A stretch of DNA of 64,000 nucleotides, from contig NZ_BIFS01000001.1 in assembly GCF_003967555.1 (NCBI RefSeq), positions 1,612,001 through 1,676,000 on the forward strand, in the 5' to 3' direction. The position numbers and the translations under genes are program-made. Under the pieces are notes generated by a model that searched no databases, was not told the origin of the DNA, and saw nothing but the letters and a program-made list of their open reading frames with translations. Shown here piece after piece: positions 883 to 35,681 of the stretch. The stretch is from Dictyobacter kobayashii (lineage in GTDB: Bacteria; Chloroflexota; Ktedonobacteria; Ktedonobacterales; Ktedonobacteraceae). Numbering within the stretch: position 1 is the first letter of the stretch; the number at the start of each line of letters is the position of its first letter.

Positions 883-1544
883 AGGGAGCTTACTCATTAT
901 ATCTGGCACCGTTGTCGGTGCCGTGGCTGGCACGACTTCATTGCTGGTTCGCTACGTTCGCCAGGAGATCCAGCGTCGTGGCTATCCTTCCTGGCAGGAG
1001 TGTCACTGCGATTTTAAGACGCAAAAGACTATTTTCCAGGTCTGGCATAGCCGTCATGAGCAGCGCGGTGAGACGATTATTGCGCAGGAATGGGGTACAT
1101 ATTTAGTACATCCACCAACGTGGATACGCTATCTTTTGCACCATAGTACACAGACCCTGGCAGTATTAAATCCACTTGGCCGCTATATCGAACGGGTCAC
1201 GCTTACCCTCAGCAATCATATCAATTTGCATCGATTCTGCATGCCAGTAACACCAATGAAGATCTACCTGAACCAACATTCCAGGAAGATTCATATGTGA
1301 TCTGGCGCCGCGAAGTATTACATTTTCCACGCTATCTCTTCGATGCCTGCCTGCGCCGTCTCTATCCCGTGAATGTCTCCTCTGAAAGATTAACACGTGA
1401 AGAAGGCCTGCCAGCGCTCTGGGATCCCACCAGCAATCTCCCCCTCCCAACGAGGGTCCTTTGCTAGAGACCCCGGTTGGGACGCGTATCGATTATATTG
1501 GCTGGACCCCGGCGCAAATTTCCTATTGCACAGCTCGCCGCTAG
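863..1544 (+). pseudogene. frame-broken hypothetical protein with N-terminal membrane segment
   Basis: Not recognised. A TTG start at 863 has a GGAGG ribosome site ten bases upstream, inside the end of the HAD gene. The reading frame begins with a short hydrophobic helix (LLIISGTVVGAVAG) and continues to about 1195, where the frame must move by one base (short G run) to keep a protein-like sequence up to about 1444, then again at a C run to reach the stop at 1544. Both breaks are explained by one missing base each, so this may be an intact gene with sequencing errors rather than a true pseudogene. A possible third break near 1515 would extend it to about 1603. It runs towards the nicotinamidase gene and overlaps its end. 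Confidence 0.55.
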
Positions 1545-2275
1545 TCTGCTTGTATACTTCGAACTACTTCGATGCCGTTTAGACTCATATGATACAGAGA
1601 CATAAGATTGAGCACGTCTCCATCATGGGGTAAAATTCTCAGTTGTTGGGCCGTGGCAACCGGCGTATCATAGGTCTGGACGGCGTTCGCAGGTACAATG
1701 ACGCGCAAAGGCAGGTTATGCGCGTTAGCATAGAGCTTCAGGTGCATAGCCATCTGGTAGATACAAAGGTCGGTACAATCTCCAACGATGATCGCTGCCT
1801 GCAAGTCTTTATGCTGCTCCAGCCAGCTACCCAGTTCGGTACCAAGGAAACCATTTAAAGAATTCTTTTGGACAATGGTGTAGAGATCCGCAAATGGGAG
1901 CCGGGCCAGTTCGGGGATATTATCGGCCTCGGCCGTTCCTTTCTGGCAATGGGGCGGAAAATTGGCGAATTCAACCGACTCGGGTGTGTGGCAGTCCTGG
2001 GCCAGGATAAATTGTCGTATCCCCGCCGCATATGCTCCCTGAAAGACCTCTACCACCGCCGGGATAATGCCTTCGACCCGTGGACTTGAGAGGGCTCCTT
2101 CATGGCAGAAGCCATTGATCATATCTACACTGAATAGCGCCGCACGCCCATGCTGGATCACCTCGGTCAGTTCTTGCCAGCTAGCACTTTTTAACTGCTG
2201 CTCCCAGTCAAGCAGGGCCTGCAAAAAGAGGTTGGCCTGCGCCAAAAATTGTTCTGCCTGGATCGGAGTTGCCAT
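1541..2275 (-). CDS. pncA: nicotinamidase / isochorismatase-family amidohydrolase
   Basis: Cysteine hydrolase of the isochorismatase fold, 244 residues from the chosen start. Nicotinamidases convert nicotinamide to nicotinate in the NAD salvage pathway. Visible catalytic features: Asp51 in SVDMINGF, a Lys in VQKNSLNG and the nucleophile Cys in CTDLC. The DxH...H metal-binding pattern typical of PncA is seen in QDCHTPESVEF followed by PPHC. The ATG at 2275 is preferred over an upstream one because AGGAG sits ten bases before it. It lies 33 bases downstream of the NrtR-type regulator on the same strand, which supports nicotinamidase over isochorismatase. The family assignment is firm; the exact substrate is inferred. 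Confidence 0.8.
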   Translation of the reverse strand: MATPIQAEQFLAQANLFLQALLDWEQQLKSASWQELTEVIQHGRAALFSVDMINGFCHEGALSSPRVEGIIPAVVEVFQGAYAAGIRQFILAQDCHTPESVEFANFPPHCQKGTAEADNIPELARLPFADLYTIVQKNSLNGFLGTELGSWLEQHKDLQAAIIVGDCTDLCIYQMAMHLKLYANAHNLPLRVIVPANAVQTYDTPVATAQQLRILPHDGDVLNLMSLYHMSLNGIEVVRSIQAD

Positions 2276-2308
2276 ATTATTTCTGCTCCTGTACACAATA
2301 ATAGCGAG

Positions 2309-3124
2309 TCAGTATCCATTGAATTCAGATCTTAAAAGGATTGCCTTATAGTTTATGTTCAGCGGCAGGATTGAAGCGATACAGGCGCGCGGGACGGTGG
2401 GTCCCTCCATTTTCTTGGCTCCTGTGTCCTCCAGGATGTTGGTGGATAGAATCTTTTTACGAAAGTTGCGTTTGTCCAGGCGCTTGTGAAGGATGATTTC
2501 ATAGACACGCTGTAACTCGCGCAGCGTAAATTGTTCTGGCAACAGATTAAAAGCAATAGTGGTATACTCAAGCTTGTTGCGCAGGCGGTTGAGCGCATAA
2601 TCCACAATTTCCTGATGGTCAAAGGCCAGTTGGGGCAACTCATAAACTGAGAACCAGCCCACATCGGCAGCATCGCTGGCGGCACGCACCTGGAGACGCT
2701 CAGAGTCCAGAAGAGCGAAATACACAACGGTAATTACACGCGTGCGTGGGTCGCGACCGGGATCACCAAACGTATAGAGTTGCTCCAGATAGACATCCTG
2801 TACGCCGGTTTCTTCCTGCAACTCACGTTTGGCGGCCGCCTCCAGGGACTCATTCATATTGATGAAACCACCAGGAATTGCCCACATGTCCTCATATGGC
2901 CATGAGCGCCGCTTGATAAGCAAAATTTGAAGATCGCGTTGCCGTAAACTCATCATCAACACATCAACAGTCACCGATGGACGCTCATATTTGTTCACAT
3001 CATACTGATGTGTTTCTGGCTCAGATGATGACCCCGCATTATGCTGCTGCCGCTCTTGTGTCATCTCTCGTAAACCTTGCAGACCATTGGTACCACTCCC
3101 CATTGCTTCGCTTTGCTCTTCCAT
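2309..3124 (-). CDS. nrtR: NrtR-type Nudix transcriptional regulator of NAD metabolism
   Basis: 271 residues: an N-terminal low-complexity tail of about 45 residues, a Nudix domain (roughly 48-170) and a C-terminal winged-helix region (roughly 180-250). NrtR proteins are known repressors of NAD synthesis and salvage genes that sense ADP-ribose through a Nudix fold. The Nudix box here is complete (GGFINMNESLE...RELQEETGV with all Glu residues), so hydrolase activity is possible, unlike many NrtRs that lost it. The downstream neighbour is a nicotinamidase, which fits the role. The alternative is a plain ADP-ribose pyrophosphatase, but the C-terminal extension with the TLRELQRVYEIIL helix favours NrtR. 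AAGAAGG lies about ten bases upstream of the ATG. Confidence 0.75.
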   Translation of the reverse strand: MEEQSEAMGSGTNGLQGLREMTQERQQHNAGSSSEPETHQYDVNKYERPSVTVDVLMMSLRQRDLQILLIKRRSWPYEDMWAIPGGFINMNESLEAAAKRELQEETGVQDVYLEQLYTFGDPGRDPRTRVITVVYFALLDSERLQVRAASDAADVGWFSVYELPQLAFDHQEIVDYALNRLRNKLEYTTIAFNLLPEQFTLRELQRVYEIILHKRLDKRNFRKKILSTNILEDTGAKKMEGPTVPRACIASILPLNINYKAILLRSEFNGY

Positions 3125-3277: not shown

Positions 3278-3363
3278 AAAATTGCCTTCTTTTCCCCCTC
3301 CTTTACTTAGTGTACATTATACACCATTTATACCCTACATCGCTACCCCTGTCAAGCTATTAA

Positions 3364-3583: not shown

Positions 3584-3612
3584 TTGTCCCAGAACTATCC
3601 CTGTGCTATACT
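3584..3612 (+). promoter_or_regulatory. promoter of the pseudokinase-helicase gene
   Basis: TTGTCC, a 17-base spacer and TATACT. The predicted start of transcription is about 40 bases before the chosen ATG at 3661. Confidence 0.6.
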
Positions 3613-3660: not shown

Positions 3661-6600
3661 ATGGCAGAGGTAGAGCTTCAGCAGATCGGTACGTACCCCA
3701 TTACTGGACTGCTGCGCGAGAGTTCTACGAGCAATTTTTATCTTGGCAAATACCGCAAGAAAAATGTAATTATTCAAAGGCTCAATATTCCTTTCTCTGA
3801 TGCTGACGATAAAAAAGCCTTTTTAGCTCGCACGAAACAATTAAAGAAACTTAAAGATCGCGCTATTGTAGCGATCCTGGATGCGAATTTTGATGGCGAT
3901 AGTGCCTACCTGGTGTTGGAACAGCCAGCCGGGAAACCACTGAACCAGTTGCTGACGATGGGGGCTTGCCTGGCACCAGATGAGGTCCGCCAGTATGTCT
4001 CTCCTATCGCCAGTGCTTTACATTATGCCCATGTCAACCATGTTGTTCATGGCAATCTGCATCCCGGTGCTATCTTGATGAGCGAGCGCCATGAGATGCT
4101 CCTGACCAGTTTTGCGCTGACCCCTCCCGGCTTCACGCCCTCGCTAGATAATGATGAGGCGGCCCTGCCATATATGGCCCCTGAACAGTTGCAGGGGCAG
4201 ACGAGCGCCAGCAGTGATCAGTATGCTCTGGCCGCCATGACCTATGAGTGGCTGTGTGGTCGGCGCCCTTACCAGGCTAGCGAACGTGCCCAACTTTTAC
4301 AGCAGCAGCAGCACGAGACTTTCCCCAAACCATCAAGTCTGAACAAGAAGATTTCAAATGCGCTTGAACAGGTCTTGCTGCAGGCCCTATCGGTTGATCC
4401 CTCGCAACGTTTTCCCCATGCACAGGCCTTTGCAGATGCCTATTTAAGTGCCTTGATGGGGTTGCCAGTCAAAACGCCAGTGGTGCGGCAGATTGTCACA
4501 TCACCAGTGGTTCCCACTACACCAACACTTCAGAACACGCAGAAAGCTACGCTAGAGGCCACATCCACAGTTGCCACCCCTTCCCTGCATACCAGTATCC
4601 AGCGCACGCCAGCGCTTCCTGTAGAACCTGCTATCACTGAGGCGCAAACGGCGAATATTGTTACTGATGAGCGGCAGGAGGAGCTTTCAAGCTGGCTGGC
4701 ACAGCGTAAGCAGCAAACAGCGGCAACAATGCCCGAGCAGACGAATGGATCACGGCCCGCCGCTTTTTCGCCAGAGGATTTGCAGAGTTTGGAGACGTTG
4801 GACGAGGCCGAAGAGGCTACCCCTATACGTGATTCGCGCCTGGTTACGATGGTTTCAGAAGATCTACGCCAGGGTGGAGTGCTCTCACAACGTCTGCCCG
4901 GCTATGAGGAGCGGCCCGCTCAGATTGAGATGGCAACCCTGGTTTCACGGGCCATCAATCAAAATGTTCCGGCTATTATTGAGGCTGCTACGGGAACTGG
5001 TAAGTCTCTGGCTTACCTGGTCCCGGTAGTGCGTTCTGGCCAGGTAGCGATCATCAGTACCGCCAATAAAGCCTTGCAAGAACAGCTCTTCTACAAGGAT
5101 ATCCCTTTTGTACAGAAACATATCAAACATTTTGAGGCCGCCCTGGTTAAAGGTGTAAGCAACTATATCTGTCTGGACCGCGTGGAGAATGAGCGCGTCG
5201 GCATGCAGTTCTTTACCAAGAATCGTGATTTCCAGCGCCTCTACGATATGATCAACGATCCTGAGACTGGCTACCAGATGACGGGGGATTTTGAGACCCT
5301 GGGCTTTCAGCTGGCTGGCGATGTGCGTTCGCGTATCGCTACGGATAGCGATCAGTGCGCCTGGTCCAAGTGTAATTTCTTTGATGAGTGCTATGTGCGC
5401 CAGATGCGTGAACGCGCGGAGCGCGCCCAGGTGATTGTAGTTAATCATACCCTGCTCTTGCTGGACGCGGCCATCGGCGGCTTCTTGCTGCCTGAGCGCG
5501 ATGTGATTGTGCTGGATGAGGCCCATCATTTAGAAGAAGAGGCCACGCGCTCCTTTACAATTACAATCAATCCAGCCCAGATCCAGACCTTACTGGCCCA
5601 GCGCATGCTGAAAGACCATAGCCAGCTCACGCTGCAGGATGATGTGATGCGAGCCGCCCAGTTAATGTGGTTACGCCTGGAACAGGTAGCCAATCCTGGT
5701 TTTAAGGGTCGCACCAATCTGGAAACGCCACTGGAAGAAGGCCTGCGCCTGGCTACGACTATCTCTGATCTGGCCGATTCTCTGCGTAAGCAACGTCCCA
5801 AAGATCTGCCAGAGAAAGAGGGTCAGCTCTATGATAAGCTGCTAAAACGTACCCAGAACCTGGCTGAGAATGTCCGCACCGTTTTCTCGGTTGCCGATCA
5901 AAGTAAGTTTGTTTATTATGTTGAGCGCATGGAGGGCTCGGTCTCGCGGGGCTTTGTGCTTCAGGCCTCCGCCGCCCCATTAGATGTGACGGCCTGGCTA
6001 CAGGAGCGGCTCTTTAATAAATGCAACGTGATCAGCACTTCGGCTACCCTGGCTACGATTGGACCCAATCCCGCTAAACCAGAGCAAAAGGGACCTAATT
6101 TCTCTTATTTCCGACGCCGCATTGGCCTGGACCCTGTGGAGCGTACCGATGTCATAGAAAATGTGCTGCCTCTGACTTTTGATTATGAGAGTAATGCGCT
6201 GCTCTATCTACCACGCCATCTGCCTCCACCAACCTTTGGCGCCGGGGCCGATGACTATATGGTGGATATCGCCCGTGAGATGTACCGGCTGGTTAAGCTC
6301 TCGCGTGGACGCGCCTTTTTACTTTTTTCTAGCAAACGTATGCTGGATCGAGCTTACGAATTGATGGCCCCCCACCTACCCTATCCATTGCTCAGACAGG
6401 GTGACATGACCCGACTGGAACTGACCCGTCGCTTCCGCGAAGAGGAGGGCTCGGTCCTGTTTGGTCTCAAAAGCTTCTGGGAAGGGGTCGACATCGCCGG
6501 CGAGGCCCTCTCACTGGTCGTGATTGATAAACTCCCATTTGATCCTCCCGATGATCCGGTCCATGAGGCACGGGTTGCCCAGATGAAGGCGGCCGGTGAA

Positions 6601-6813
6601 AACTGGTTTGGGACCTATGTGCTTCCACAGGCTGTATTGCGCCTTAAACAAGGCATTGGACGTCTGCTACGCTCACGTGAGGATCGCGGCGTAATGGCCA
6701 TTCTGGATACCCGCCTGCATACCAAAGGCTACGGCAAACAGGTGCTTAATGCGATGCCACCCGCTCGCCGTACCTCTAGTATCCGCGACGTTGAGCGCTT
6801 CTTTGCACAATGA
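3661..6813 (+). CDS. pseudokinase fused to a DinG/XPD-like Fe-S DNA helicase
   Basis: 1050 residues. Residues about 10-275 have the order of a Ser/Thr protein kinase, but the catalytic signature is gone: the VAIK Lys is Gln39 (VIIQR), HRD is HGN (130-132), and DFG is SFA (150-152). The APE motif (YMAPEQL) and kinase C-lobe helices remain, so this is a pseudokinase. After a Pro/Thr-rich linker the helicase begins near 415: Walker A EAATGTGKS at 441-449, DEAH at 619-622, and four cysteines (504, 566, 571, 577) in the 4Fe-4S pattern of XPD/DinG. Motif VI is QGIGRLLR near residue 1000. DinG-type enzymes unwind DNA 5' to 3' and resolve R-loops and G-quadruplexes. The ATG at 3661 is preferred over 3631 because GGAGAGG lies seven bases before it. 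Confidence 0.88.
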   Translation: MAEVELQQIGTYPITGLLRESSTSNFYLGKYRKKNVIIQRLNIPFSDADDKKAFLARTKQLKKLKDRAIVAILDANFDGDSAYLVLEQPAGKPLNQLLTMGACLAPDEVRQYVSPIASALHYAHVNHVVHGNLHPGAILMSERHEMLLTSFALTPPGFTPSLDNDEAALPYMAPEQLQGQTSASSDQYALAAMTYEWLCGRRPYQASERAQLLQQQQHETFPKPSSLNKKISNALEQVLLQALSVDPSQRFPHAQAFADAYLSALMGLPVKTPVVRQIVTSPVVPTTPTLQNTQKATLEATSTVATPSLHTSIQRTPALPVEPAITEAQTANIVTDERQEELSSWLAQRKQQTAATMPEQTNGSRPAAFSPEDLQSLETLDEAEEATPIRDSRLVTMVSEDLRQGGVLSQRLPGYEERPAQIEMATLVSRAINQNVPAIIEAATGTGKSLAYLVPVVRSGQVAIISTANKALQEQLFYKDIPFVQKHIKHFEAALVKGVSNYICLDRVENERVGMQFFTKNRDFQRLYDMINDPETGYQMTGDFETLGFQLAGDVRSRIATDSDQCAWSKCNFFDECYVRQMRERAERAQVIVVNHTLLLLDAAIGGFLLPERDVIVLDEAHHLEEEATRSFTITINPAQIQTLLAQRMLKDHSQLTLQDDVMRAAQLMWLRLEQVANPGFKGRTNLETPLEEGLRLATTISDLADSLRKQRPKDLPEKEGQLYDKLLKRTQNLAENVRTVFSVADQSKFVYYVERMEGSVSRGFVLQASAAPLDVTAWLQERLFNKCNVISTSATLATIGPNPAKPEQKGPNFSYFRRRIGLDPVERTDVIENVLPLTFDYESNALLYLPRHLPPPTFGAGADDYMVDIAREMYRLVKLSRGRAFLLFSSKRMLDRAYELMAPHLPYPLLRQGDMTRLELTRRFREEEGSVLFGLKSFWEGVDIAGEALSLVVIDKLPFDPPDDPVHEARVAQMKAAGENWFGTYVLPQAVLRLKQGIGRLLRSREDRGVMAILDTRLHTKGYGKQVLNAMPPARRTSSIRDVERFFAQ

Positions 6814-6976
6814 GCTCCCCTGGCCAATAGATGAGTTTATAACGCGCTTTCTTCCATAGGTTAAGAAACTCGACAGATCTAGGGTAGACAGATCTAGCGA
6901 ATGAGAATAGAATAAGAAGTGCATTCCGACTCATAATAAAACATCAAAAATTTAATTGGTACAGGGGAGTTCGCGC

Positions 6977-8173
6977 ATGAGCAAAACTAAGATGCGTTGT
7001 AGCACCTGCGGCAAGTGGTTTCAGTCGGCTAATGCTAGAGAAGTAACTTGCCCTGATTGCACGCAAAAAGCTAGAAAAGAAAAGTTGGCGGCCAAAAATG
7101 CGCCGCCCGTGTCTAATAAAGCTGCAGGCTCTGGCGTTACAGCAGCGCCACGGCAGGTGGCTCCTCCGCCCAAGCCGAAACCGGCACAAAGCGGAACGAA
7201 CCAGTGGCTCGATAGCCTTTCAGATGTGAAGGTGGGTCAACCCGACCAACCACCACAACGCCCCAAGCTGCCATCCACTCCTGTACAACGAGACCGCTCC
7301 AGCGGACCAGGAGGTAATCGCCCTTCGTATTCATCTGGACCAACAACCGCCGCACCCCGCGACACCAATACTCAACGGAGCAATGGTCCAGGCCGTGGTC
7401 CCGCTGCATACCATGTGAGCAATGGCGCTACGTTGGCTCCTTCACCCGGGCAGCGTCCCTCCCAGCCGCACCGGCCCTCTGAAGGGGGCCCCAATCGCGG
7501 TGGTGGATCGGGTAAACCCTGGGCGAAAAATGCTGGCCCCGGCGGTCCCAGAGGAGCCAAGAAGCCTAAGGTACCAAGACCAGCTCCTGCTCCAAAGCCA
7601 AAACGCGAAAAGACACCACCACCTGAGCCATTTACGCCAACACCTGAGCAGATTCAACAGGTTGAGGAGCGCTATACAGTCCTGGCCCAACCCTCGGAAT
7701 TCGATGGCATCCGTACACAGATCGCCAAAGAATTTGATATCCCTAAAAAGGCGGTCAAAAAGATTATCAAGGATCTACGCGATCGTCAGCATATTCCTAG
7801 CTGGTGGGAGATTCAGACCTATAAAGGGAGCCAGGAGGAATTGGAGCGCATCAAGTCGGTCTATGAGCCATATCTGCCTGTACCTCCGGTAGGAGTACAT
7901 AAAAAGATCTCAGACGAACTGAACTTAAAACCAGGTACGGTCTATCAGGCAATTAAGGCGATTCGCGTCGAACTTAATCTGCCTCAGTATAACGATCCTA
8001 AATATCATGAGGAAGAATTAGCTGAGCATATTAAACGTGCCCAGGCTAAGAAAGCAGCGGCCGCTGAAAAAGCCGCTGAGGCACCTACAGCTATTGCGGC
8101 TGCGGAACCTGCTGAGACGCAGACAGCCGTTGTGCACGTAGAGCCCGAGGCCAGTTCGCCCGCGCAAGAATAA
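6977..8173 (+). CDS. zinc-ribbon protein with two C-terminal helix-turn-helix-like repeats
   Basis: 398 residues, not a family I can name. An N-terminal zinc ribbon (CSTCGKWF...CPDC, residues 8-28) is followed by about 190 residues rich in Pro, Gly, Ala and basic residues. Then come two similar segments: EERYTVLAQPSEFDGIRTQIAKEFDIPKK... and KSVYEPYLPVPPVGVHKKISDELNLKPG..., each followed by a V-x-x-x-I-K/R helix. The repeats look like tandem winged or simple helix-turn-helix units, so nucleic-acid binding is a reasonable inference. The C-terminus is Ala/Glu-rich. AGGGGAG lies seven bases before the ATG at 6977, which decides the start over 6956. Confidence 0.7.
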   Translation: MSKTKMRCSTCGKWFQSANAREVTCPDCTQKARKEKLAAKNAPPVSNKAAGSGVTAAPRQVAPPPKPKPAQSGTNQWLDSLSDVKVGQPDQPPQRPKLPSTPVQRDRSSGPGGNRPSYSSGPTTAAPRDTNTQRSNGPGRGPAAYHVSNGATLAPSPGQRPSQPHRPSEGGPNRGGGSGKPWAKNAGPGGPRGAKKPKVPRPAPAPKPKREKTPPPEPFTPTPEQIQQVEERYTVLAQPSEFDGIRTQIAKEFDIPKKAVKKIIKDLRDRQHIPSWWEIQTYKGSQEELERIKSVYEPYLPVPPVGVHKKISDELNLKPGTVYQAIKAIRVELNLPQYNDPKYHEEELAEHIKRAQAKKAAAAEKAAEAPTAIAAAEPAETQTAVVHVEPEASSPAQE

Positions 8174-17099: not shown

Positions 17100-18308
17100 A
17101 TGAATGGTGACATGATAGGTCGTGTCATCAAAGGTCGCTATAAGCTGATCGATGAACGTGGGCGGGGCAGTTTTGCTACCGTCTATGTTGTACGCGACCT
17201 TGGAGACAATCGGATCTACGCGCTCAAGGTCATGCATCTAGAACTGTCCGGCGACGGCGAACTGCTAGCTCGTTTCCAGAGAGAGGCCCATATTCTCTTG
17301 AATCTTAGCGACTCACATGTTGTGAGGATCTTTGATTACGGGAACGATAATAACATGCACTATATAGTGATGGATTATATTGATGGGCAAAGCCTTAAGT
17401 ACTACATGATTAATCAGGGTCCAATGGAACCTCTGCGTGCCATTAACTATGCACGCCAGATTACAGAAGGACTGGATGCCGCGTATAAACAAGGTGTAGT
17501 GCATAGAGATATCAAGCCACAAAATATACTCATTAATAGTAAGGATATAGTTAAAATTACTGACTTTGGCCTGGCCCGTGGTCGGGACACTGTTACACTG
17601 ACGCAGTCGAATGTATTTATGGGCACTGCCTACTATATTTCGCCAGAGCAGGCTGAAAGTGGGCGTTCAGCGGATACCCGTTCTGATCTTTATTCGGTGG
17701 CTACGGTGTTGTTTGAGATGCTGACGGGTCGTCCACCCTATGAGGGTGATACGGCCGTTGACATTGTGATCAAACATATGAATGATAAGGTGCCGTCGAT
17801 CTGTCGTTTGCGACCCGATTTGCCATTGGAGATGGATGCATTTATGCAAAAGGCGCTGGCGAAATCACCGGCCGATCGCTTTGCGACCCCCCAGGATTTT
17901 AATGCCGCCCTTGAGCAGCTGACGCAGGTTCTGCCACCACCCACACCCCAGGCGGATGAGGGGAAGCGAGGAGCCAGTAGGACACCAGTCCCGCCGCCAG
18001 CGAAGGAGGCACGCATCATCGTAATCTCTAGTGGGCATATCATTCCTCTAAATGGTGATAAACTGGTCGTTGGTCGACAAGATCCAACCCTGGGTATCTA
18101 CCCTGAGATTAATCTGGCGGATAAAACGGTCGGACGACGGCATGCATACCTGCGCAATCAGCAAGGGACCTATACAGTCGAGGACCTGAATGCCCTGAAT
18201 AAGACTCGCTTAAACGGAGTGACCTTGACACCACACGAGGAACGTACCCTTAAAGATGGTGACATTCTACGCTTTGGGAGCGTCGAGGTACGTTTCGAAT
18301 TGCGTTAA
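17100..18308 (+). CDS. Ser/Thr protein kinase with C-terminal FHA domain
   Basis: 402 residues. An active Hanks-type kinase (about 10-275) carries the Gly loop GRGSFATVY, Lys in YALKVM, HRDIKPQN, DFG and SPEQ. A Pro-rich linker follows, then an FHA domain (about 305-402, with VVGRQDPTLG, GRRHAYL and LNALNKTRLNG). FHA domains bind phosphothreonine, so the protein can dock to its own or a partner's phosphorylated tail. No membrane segment is seen; it is a cytosolic kinase. It starts the signalling block 17.1-26.6 kb and has a strong promoter and a GAGGAG ribosome site. Confidence 0.92.
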   Translation: MNGDMIGRVIKGRYKLIDERGRGSFATVYVVRDLGDNRIYALKVMHLELSGDGELLARFQREAHILLNLSDSHVVRIFDYGNDNNMHYIVMDYIDGQSLKYYMINQGPMEPLRAINYARQITEGLDAAYKQGVVHRDIKPQNILINSKDIVKITDFGLARGRDTVTLTQSNVFMGTAYYISPEQAESGRSADTRSDLYSVATVLFEMLTGRPPYEGDTAVDIVIKHMNDKVPSICRLRPDLPLEMDAFMQKALAKSPADRFATPQDFNAALEQLTQVLPPPTPQADEGKRGASRTPVPPPAKEARIIVISSGHIIPLNGDKLVVGRQDPTLGIYPEINLADKTVGRRHAYLRNQQGTYTVEDLNALNKTRLNGVTLTPHEERTLKDGDILRFGSVEVRFELR

Positions 18309-19862: not shown

Positions 19863-21089
19863 TTGTACTGCCCGGATGGAGCCAAGCAGCTACCTTCGGC
19901 GTGGCCCTATGACATGATGCAGCAAGACGATCTGATTGGAACAATGCTCGGCAATTATCGTATCCTGGAGACATTAGGACAGGGAGGAATGGCTCGGGTA
20001 TATAAAGCCCACCAGGAAAACCTGGGCCGCGATGTGGCGGTCAAAGTCCTACCACCCTGGTACGCTGCTGACCGCAATTTCGTTGAGCGCTTCAATCTGG
20101 AAGCCAGGTTGGTCGCATCGCTCACACACCCAAATATTGTGACCGTTCATGATGCGAACGAACAACATGGTCATCTGTATATTGTAATGCAACTTGTCGA
20201 TGGGGGGACCCTTAAACAACGCTTCGATAGGTTTCTACTGGAGAAGCGCGCAATCGATACCGCAGAATTGATCTCTATCTTTGTGCAATTAGCCGATGCT
20301 TTGACCTATGCCCACGGACAAGGGGTGATTCACCGCGATATTAAACCTGTCAATGTCTTGATGGATCGCTCGGGCCGCCCAATCCTTTCGGATTTCGGCA
20401 TCGCCAAGGTGCTGGCCAGCACGCAGACGAATCTCACTCGTCCGGGCGCAGGTGTGGGGACCCCAGAATATATGTCACCCGAACAATGCCAGGGAGGTCC
20501 TGTAGATGGCCGGGCCGATATTTATGCTCTGGGAGTTATGCTCTTCGAGGCTGAAACGGGGCGCACGCCCTTTGTAGAAGATAATTATCCAGCCCTGGCC
20601 CATAGTCATATTTACGAGCAACCGCCGCGTCCACGGGCCCTGAATCCACTCATTCCACCAGCTATCGAGCATATTATTTTAACTGCGCTATCCAAAAATC
20701 CAGCGCAACGCTATCAAACAGCCAGGGAAATGGGCGAGGCTTTGAATCAGGCGCTCTTACTGATCAATAATCCGTCTCAATCAGCAATCGGTGGCTTCTT
20801 CGGGCAACCGCAGATGGGTGGGGGAGCTTTTATGCCTCAACATCTACTGCCATCTCAGCCTCCACAACCACCAATAGCACAACCACCCGCCCCTCGTACA
20901 CCAACGATGGTCGATAATCGCCAGCAAAACGTGCTTTTCACATGCTTTAATTGTCAGCATCTAAATAAGCCTCAGATGCGCTATTGTACGCGCTGTGGAT
21001 ACCTGCTCAATCAATGCACCGTCTGTGGCGAACGGAACCCTGTTGGCAATCGCTTCTGCACCAGGTGTGGGCAACCACTGGCCATTTAA
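19863..21089 (+). CDS. Ser/Thr protein kinase with C-terminal double zinc ribbon
   Basis: 408 residues from the TTG at 19863 (GAAAGGGG nine bases upstream); ATGs at 19914 and 19917 lack a good ribosome site but fall just before the kinase fold. The kinase domain (about 30-300) is complete: GQGGMARVY, VAVKVL, HRDIKPVN, DFG, SPEQ. A Pro/Gln linker leads to two zinc ribbons (CFNC...CTRCG and CTVCGERN...CTRCGQP). Zinc ribbons of this type occur in the membrane proteins at 24-26 kb too, so they may be a shared interaction module. It lies 83 bases after the FHA gene on the same strand. Confidence 0.9.
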   Translation: MYCPDGAKQLPSAWPYDMMQQDDLIGTMLGNYRILETLGQGGMARVYKAHQENLGRDVAVKVLPPWYAADRNFVERFNLEARLVASLTHPNIVTVHDANEQHGHLYIVMQLVDGGTLKQRFDRFLLEKRAIDTAELISIFVQLADALTYAHGQGVIHRDIKPVNVLMDRSGRPILSDFGIAKVLASTQTNLTRPGAGVGTPEYMSPEQCQGGPVDGRADIYALGVMLFEAETGRTPFVEDNYPALAHSHIYEQPPRPRALNPLIPPAIEHIILTALSKNPAQRYQTAREMGEALNQALLLINNPSQSAIGGFFGQPQMGGGAFMPQHLLPSQPPQPPIAQPPAPRTPTMVDNRQQNVLFTCFNCQHLNKPQMRYCTRCGYLLNQCTVCGERNPVGNRFCTRCGQPLAI

Positions 21090-34695: not shown

Positions 34696-35681
34696 TTAAT
34701 GAGGCGTGTTATGGACTAATTGCGCGGCCACGCCAATCGCTATTACGACCAGCGCCAGGGCGATAATGACCAGGGCCGCCATAATCACCTGTTGCCGCCA
34801 GGTACTTTGTTTTGGTGACTCAGGTTCATAAGGGATCGGCACCACTTCATTTAAATTCTGCAGGGCATGCCACATATCCTGCATCGATTTATAACGCTTA
34901 TCGGCATCGCGTCGAATAGCCTTCATAACGACTGTAGCCAGTTCAGGAGACAGGTCAGGCTGGGAATTGAGGATAGAGGGAGGATCTTGCGTCGCATGCT
35001 GATTCATGACAGCAAACACATTTTCACCCTCAAATGGAGGATGTCCACAGAGCATCTCATACAGGATGACGCCGACCGCGTAGACATCGGCACTGGCAGT
35101 ACCACGCTCACCACGAATCTGTTCAGGGGACATATAATCTGGCGTACCCACGGTTCCGGTCAGGCCACGCCAGGTGACGCGACGCGCCCCTTCCAGCAAG
35201 GCTACACCAAAATCAATCAATTTAATCGAGCCATCATTCTGAACCATAATATTTTCAGGTTTGATATCCCGATGAAACACACCATGCTCATGGCAATATA
35301 CCAGAGCATCACAGATCTGGAGCGTCAAACGCATCGCTTCGGCCGCTGGCAAGGGCTTGCCATCGCGTTCCTCTAAAACTTCACGCAGCGTGCGCCCCTC
35401 AATATACTCCATTACCAGGTATTCTTCGCTGCGCTTCTCGCCAGTATTGAGCATACGCTGCACATGGGGATGATTGATACGGTTACCAATTTCAGCTTCA
35501 CGCTTATAGCGCTCAAAGACCCCTACATTGCCAATCAAATCATCATTGGGGAACTTCAACACAACTGTCTGCTGATTATTGAGATCGCAGGCCAGATACA
35601 CGCGACTCATCCCCCATGACCCAGCATGCGGATTATCTCATAATGATCGACTCGCGCCCCTGGTGTATACGCTAATGGCAT
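34696..35681 (-). CDS. membrane-anchored Ser/Thr protein kinase (frame break near 35613)
   Basis: About 328 residues when joined. From the ATG at 35681 the frame reads ...RVDHYEIIRMLGHGG and breaks in a run of five G (35611-35615 on the plus strand); one more G gives the complete Gly loop LGHGGMSRVYLA. Without that correction the gene would start inside the loop. Other kinase landmarks: Lys in VVLKFP, HRDIKPEN, IDFG, SPEQ. A C-terminal membrane helix (VIMAALVIIALALVVIAIGVAA) is followed by only eight residues, so there is no outer sensor domain. Active kinase at the inner membrane face; substrate unknown. Confidence 0.85.

Follow-up and report, generated by a model that had tools for sequence, protein, structure and literature searches.

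Layout of the fusion gene and its helicase half

The stretch of Dictyobacter kobayashii DNA analysed here (64,000 nucleotides, hereafter the window) encodes a 1050-residue protein in which a kinase-like domain is joined by a long linker to a YoaA/DinG-type helicase (Table 1). A preliminary description had proposed a pseudokinase fused to a DinG/XPD-like helicase at this position, and domain matches, a structural model and the relatives of the protein all uphold that layout. The gene is likely to be transcribed from the promoter element listed in Table 1, whose TATACT hexamer and preceding TG are identical in all seven aligned upstream regions. In the predicted structure of the fusion protein the pLDDT falls below 50 at residues 274-391, and the corresponding linker spans 75-180 residues (median 112) among 103 relatives. 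The model has a pTM of 0.53 and is therefore silent on contacts between the pseudokinase and helicase halves.

Table 1. Features of the fusion gene and its upstream region, in window positions; counts out of 120 refer to the best 120 of the related proteins found
Feature	Position	Strand	Basis
Likely promoter: TTGTCC, 17-base spacer, extended -10 TGC-TATACT	3584..3612	+	Sequence
Pseudokinase-helicase fusion protein, 1050 residues	3661..6813	+	Open frame; Pfam and NCBIfam matches to both halves
Pseudokinase domain, residues 1-270	3661..4470	+	
Gln39 at VAIK lysine position	3775..3777	+	Sequence; among 120: K 84, Q 33, R 1, gap 2
Arg57 at αC glutamate position	3829..3831	+	R 96, H 6, gap 1 of 103 relatives; E in 32/32 same-genome kinases
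HGN replacing HRD, residues 130-132	4048..4056	+	Catalytic Asp to N in 119/120 proteins, K in 1
SFA replacing DFG, residues 150-152	4108..4116	+	Sequence and 120-protein counts
Linker, residues 271-391, low-confidence, probably disordered	4471..4833	+	pLDDT, length, dN/dS
YoaA/DinG-type helicase, residues 392-1050	4834..6810	+	NCBIfam YoaA 401-1049; Foldseek DinG 6fwr E 3.8e-32
Walker A AATGTGKSL, residues 442-450	4984..5010	+	Lys448 in 120/120
Fe-S region, Cys504, 566, 571, 577	5170..5391	+	Four Cys all present in 120/120
DEAH box, residues 619-622	5515..5526	+	DEAHHLEE in 120/120
Motif VI QGIGRLLR, residues 997-1004	6649..6672	+	997, 998, 1000-1004 invariant in 120/120; 999 is I or L

Conservation was assessed in the best 120 of 3582 proteins found (8000 candidates scored), a set that favours fusions because it was ranked by similarity to the whole protein. 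The helicase half possesses the Walker A motif, DEAH box, four Fe-S cysteines and motif VI that typify XPD/DinG-like Fe-S helicases, in agreement with the earlier reading of this half as intact, and by analogy with its relatives it is probably a DNA-repair Fe-S helicase of 5'-3' polarity. The best NCBIfam model for it is that of YoaA, the Fe-S helicase of Escherichia coli, with 547.2 bits over residues 401-1049; however, this score lies below the equivalog cut-off of 680, and the protein further differs from YoaA in its N-terminal pseudokinase and in belonging to a genome in which χ (HolC) was not found. The TIGR01407 DnaQ/DinG model matches only from residue 414 (model positions 243-871), leaving the protein without the N-terminal 3'-5' exonuclease of ExoDinG. 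PMC11981726 (Cheng 2025) places the Ktedonobacterales protein nearer to its DinG subgroup. A second DinG-like helicase of the genome (G000:C1:4778830-4779474, in a frame of 806 residues) is probably the ExoDinG mentioned for the order in the same paper.

In 17 of the 120 relatives an insert occurs right after the Walker A lysine (GTGK), and 16 of these inserts contain a LAGLIDADG domain. The insert starts with Ala, not Cys, in 16 cases and with Asp in one; among the 16 relatives in which its end was read, its length is 321-438 residues and it closes with HN before the Ser. By these sequence features it is an intein splitting the Walker A motif. The stand-alone relative G034, from another family, has a large insertion roughly at this site.

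Eight neighboring genes were compared across relatives, and Pfam searches with four of them recovered a HAD hydrolase, an isochorismatase and an NrtR-like NUDIX protein, with one unmatched. The isochorismatase-domain gene lies at window positions 1541-2296 and the NrtR-like NUDIX regulator, which has a winged helix, at 2309-3124, followed at 3307-3326 by a palindrome, TTAGTGTA-N5-TACACCA; such a palindrome is present upstream in four of six aligned relatives. The segment 1541-3326 is probably an NAD-salvage unit with its operator, including a putative nicotinamidase. Downstream of the fusion, at 6974-8173, a gene encodes a protein of 399 residues that opens with CxxC pairs, is rich in proline in its middle and gave no match in Pfam; a match to it sits downstream of the helicase in 13 of the 20 compared family loci, some of the others ending early. 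An anti-phage role was considered and rejected; among the hits listed by PADLOC, applied to the fusion protein only, those to the kinase half are kinase models (PD-T4-6 for the most part, with mad6 and MkoA as well) and those to the helicase half are type IV DinG models.

Residue replacements and selection in the kinase-like domain

The N-terminal region is predicted to adopt a kinase fold of the PknA/PknB type at about residues 5-270, with PknA and PknB as its closest kinase folds, and profile searches with residues 1-270 matched kinase families only; both checks had been proposed in the preliminary description. The kinase motif names and the P+1 loop used below follow the usual convention. 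The domain shares 22-24% identity with the Hanks-type kinases PknA and PknB, but its catalytic and nucleotide-site residues are replaced: along with Gln39, Arg57, Asn132 and Ser150, the window protein has no GxGxxG in the region of the Gly-rich loop and Ala137 in place of the catalytic-loop Asn. It thus falls outside the active Hanks-type Ser/Thr kinases and corresponds to a protein pseudokinase, in which a kinase fold, here a modelled one, is missing its catalytic residues.

The earlier claim that all three catalytic residues are replaced holds for the window protein, but across the family only the loss of the HRD Asp is nearly general. None of the 24 genomes of the window's family (Ktedonobacteraceae) with the domain has Asp at this residue (23 have Asn and G008 has Lys), whereas Lys39 persists in 84 of the 120 proteins and residue 150 is Glu in 69 and Asp in 22 (N 19, G 5, S 3, A 1, K 1). 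Residue 152 is Ser in 84 proteins, Ala in 35 and Thr in one. Positions 39 and 150 are lost together: Asp or Glu is found at position 150 in 83 of the 84 Lys39 proteins and in six of the 33 Gln39 proteins. By these catalytic-state counts over 120 proteins and 24 genomes, the genus of the window is among the most degenerate members of a family predicted to be dead throughout.

Given this joint loss, and the retention of Lys39, Asn137 and Asp/Glu150 together in 58 of the 120 proteins, nucleotide binding may persist in some relatives. ATP-level gating of the helicase had been suggested earlier; the domain would then be a nucleotide-sensing gate that binds ATP without hydrolysis, such that the ATP level sets helicase activity. 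The DLHK pseudokinases are proposed (PMC12599244) to bind ATP in an unusual mode. In the window protein such gating is unlikely because it retains neither the Gly loop nor the Lys, αC Glu, HRD Asp, catalytic-loop Asn or DFG Asp; moreover, the αC Glu has given way to Arg or His in 102 of 103 relatives. As an explanation of the domain the gate appears quite improbable.

When 103 intein-free relatives were compared with 32 unique kinases from the genome itself (38 of 39 loci), which were drawn from its best-scoring kinases and form a subset of its 112 Pkinase match pieces, a family-specific set of conserved replacements emerged: Arg for the αC Glu, Asn for the HRD Asp, Ser or Ala for the DFG Gly and Ala for the P+1 Thr, together with a basic αC helix. 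The Pro of the HPN motif, present in 28 of the 32 genome kinases, is replaced by Arg67 in 99 of the 103 relatives, and the P+1-loop Thr, present in 27 of the 32, by Ala in 98. Lysines are conserved at positions 34 (95 of 103), 62 (95) and 63 (101). The αC helix (residues 48-67) has a mean net charge of +4.6 in the relatives versus -0.3 in the genome kinases, while the C-lobe is the more acidic (-8.4 versus -2.9), so that the charge pattern of the domain is not one-sided. In a tree of 24 domains and the 32 genome kinases, all 24 fall into one clade with an SH-like support of 1.0 and a stem length of 0.90.

The basic αC face, with its Lys and Arg67 positions, and the RKK of the β2-β3 region might together form an extra grip on DNA or RNA, raising the affinity of the helicase or selecting its substrates. 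To our knowledge DNA binding by kinase folds is unusual, and the acidic C-lobe leaves the domain as a whole not basic. The same role is proposed in PMC11981726 for the inactive exonuclease domain of pExoDinG, which resembles the present case in being a degenerate enzyme domain N-terminal to a DinG-like helicase with a proposed regulatory or structural function, but differs in that the dead domain has an exonuclease rather than a kinase fold. On balance a nucleic acid grip is improbable.

The kinase-like domain is under purifying selection, less tight than that on the helicase. Across six close pairs, the kinase part has a dN/dS of 0.07-0.14, against 0.10-0.42 in the linker and 0.01-0.06 in the helicase, these ranges excluding five of the 11 pairs computed, in which dS is saturated and the values, where defined, are 0.095-0.173, 0.77-0.81 and 0.047-0.061, respectively; in the pair G000-G004 the dS of the linker is saturated too (2.2). 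A dN/dS of 0.07-0.14 implies that the domain, though predicted to be inactive, is not decaying. This value and the conserved replacements, which live kinases lack, argue against the inert remnant of a functionless accidental fusion that PMC11981726 suggests. Its faster evolution relative to the helicase and its absence in one family genome (G018) would accord with such a remnant, which nevertheless seems very unlikely indeed.

The window contains three further kinase domains, at 17145-17894 (+), 19956-20720 (+) and 34873-35622 (-), with Pkinase E-values of 6.3e-52, 7.5e-50 and 1.9e-52, respectively. Two other kinase-like proteins of the genome, L008 and L010, lack the HRD Asp (HCG and HLN); the genome therefore has more than one kind of likely pseudokinase.

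Distribution, origin and previously described proteins

A search of 47 genomes of the class, comprising 29 Ktedonobacteraceae and 18 others, recovered the helicase at an E-value of 1e-80 or better in 26 of the 29, with three lacking a match. The fusion occupies a single frame in 22 of these 26 (in G017 with an intein), which answers the earlier question of whether it recurs in other Ktedonobacteria and rules out a frameshift or assembly artefact as the source of the window fusion. In G002 and G007 the two halves are read in different frames, with the junction in the linker, for which a sequencing error could be responsible, and in G005 the gene is cut by the contig end. G018 has a stand-alone helicase without the kinase-like domain, adjoining a gene that by eye reads like an NAD-dependent DNA ligase (ligA-like). 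Thus, judging from the stand-alone and split cases, the link is dispensable or the halves can act apart.

Outside the family no kinase domain was found on the helicase in any of the 16 helicase-holding genomes among the 18, of which 11 were checked by frame and five judged by a match starting at query residue 364 or later. A search of 14 genomes of the same phylum with the helicase half alone gave two matches at 1e-60. In G030, from the sister family f3, the helicase comes after the same NUDIX and isochorismatase genes, and the locus gave no kinase match; the NUDIX gene is likewise upstream in 18 of the 20 compared Ktedonobacteraceae loci, the exceptions being G006 and G018. Given the stand-alone helicases elsewhere and the shared neighbors in G030, the family stem most likely acquired the domain at an existing helicase site.

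The best 120 of the 1518 proteins recovered with the kinase half alone comprise a first set of 52, in which the HRD Asp is Asn in 49 (His in two, Asp in one) and the αC Glu is Arg in 33 and His in 12, and another 68, of which 65 keep the Asp. Among the first 52, some lie on short contigs, stop in the linker or where the helicase begins and resemble fragments of fusions, while some on long contigs (P0121, from D. vulcani) may be split genes. P0161, a 408-residue kinase-like protein of 34% identity with HRN, an αC Gly and GFG, is possibly an intermediate between live kinases and the fusion pseudokinase.

The preliminary description knew of no protein with this layout, but two papers do describe such proteins. 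In Ktedonobacterales bacterium SCAWS-G2, PMC11981726 reports a kinase-like domain on a DinG-like protein, placing that domain at the C-terminus, likening it to PknA and regarding it as perhaps acquired incidentally; the word 'pseudokinase' is absent from the paper's text. The SCAWS-G2 fusion has HGK at the HRD position. We infer that this is the same gene as the fusion found here, which equally combines a DinG-like helicase with a PknA-like domain in Ktedonobacterales, its N-terminal placement departing from the wording of that paper. As described, the SCAWS-G2 domain is C-terminal, whereas that of the window family is N-terminal, lacks the catalytic Asp, occurs family-wide and is under selection. 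The DLHK pseudokinases, for which PMC12599244 describes links to DEAD-like helicase and DNA2 domains, similarly combine a bacterial pseudokinase domain and a helicase within one protein. However, they occur mainly in proteobacteria and keep the HRD Asp, which here is Asn in 119 of the 120 proteins and Lys in the other, in association with an XPD/DinG-type helicase in Ktedonobacteria. As far as our searches go, the N-terminal position, the absence of the catalytic Asp in every genome examined, the distinct conserved signature and the purifying selection are new.

Possible roles of the pseudokinase domain

Having lost its catalytic residues yet being kept by selection, the domain is likely to be a docking or control handle, not an enzyme. 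The drifting nucleotide site, stable fold and basic αC face fit a binding role, exerted from a flexible linker, better than catalysis or ATP sensing. The explanation that we tentatively prefer, with slightly less than even confidence, is a docking or regulatory handle that works without ATP and would bind an acidic partner via the conserved basic face of the αC helix. Under such a scheme a Hanks-type kinase domain, inactive already or later, would have joined the helicase gene in the family stem, and the linker of roughly 120 residues would let the domain reach its partner with the helicase on DNA. The partner could be another kinase or a protein of DNA repair or replication, with the SSB tail as a candidate.

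The domain might instead act in signalling, pairing with or being phosphorylated by a Hanks kinase of the genome and relaying its state to the helicase. The genome is kinase-rich, as had been noted earlier, in view of the 112 Pkinase match pieces, and of the two kinases closest in fold, PknA and PknB, the latter forms back-to-back dimers. Ser or Thr is found in the activation segment (residues 153-167) in 90 of the 103 relatives, at residue 154 in 73, so that the phospho-signal gating suggested earlier is conceivable despite the P+1 Thr to Ala replacement. Against this, residue 160, a Thr in 16 of the 32 genome kinases, is Ser or Thr in only three of the 103 relatives, and residues 163 and 164 are acidic in 96 and 94 of them. 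A signalling role of this kind seems rather unlikely.

The docking handle could also take a more specific form. According to PMC11981726, χ and SSB mediate the recruitment of E. coli YoaA, and the SSB tail is a binding site for DinG. A search for χ with PF04364, which among 14 control genomes finds E. coli and Caulobacter, gave no match in the genome (95% complete), whose single SSB match carries an acidic tail with LDDHPF at the end. These observations, taken with the recruitment of YoaA and DinG, would make a recruitment role reasonable by analogy. That the pseudokinase is an adaptor replacing the missing χ, its basic αC helix reading the acidic SSB C-terminus or a similar tail and loading the helicase at stalled forks, is in itself distinctly improbable; were it true, a dead kinase would have turned into a replication-fork docking domain.

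Bacterial pseudokinases are, according to PMC12599244, largely unexplored by experiment. The present family offers a natural series, in which sister families share a gene neighborhood that has the domain in one and lacks it in the other, and the helicase is of a type with known assays. This series lets one ask what a kinase fold gives a DNA-repair enzyme after catalysis has been lost.
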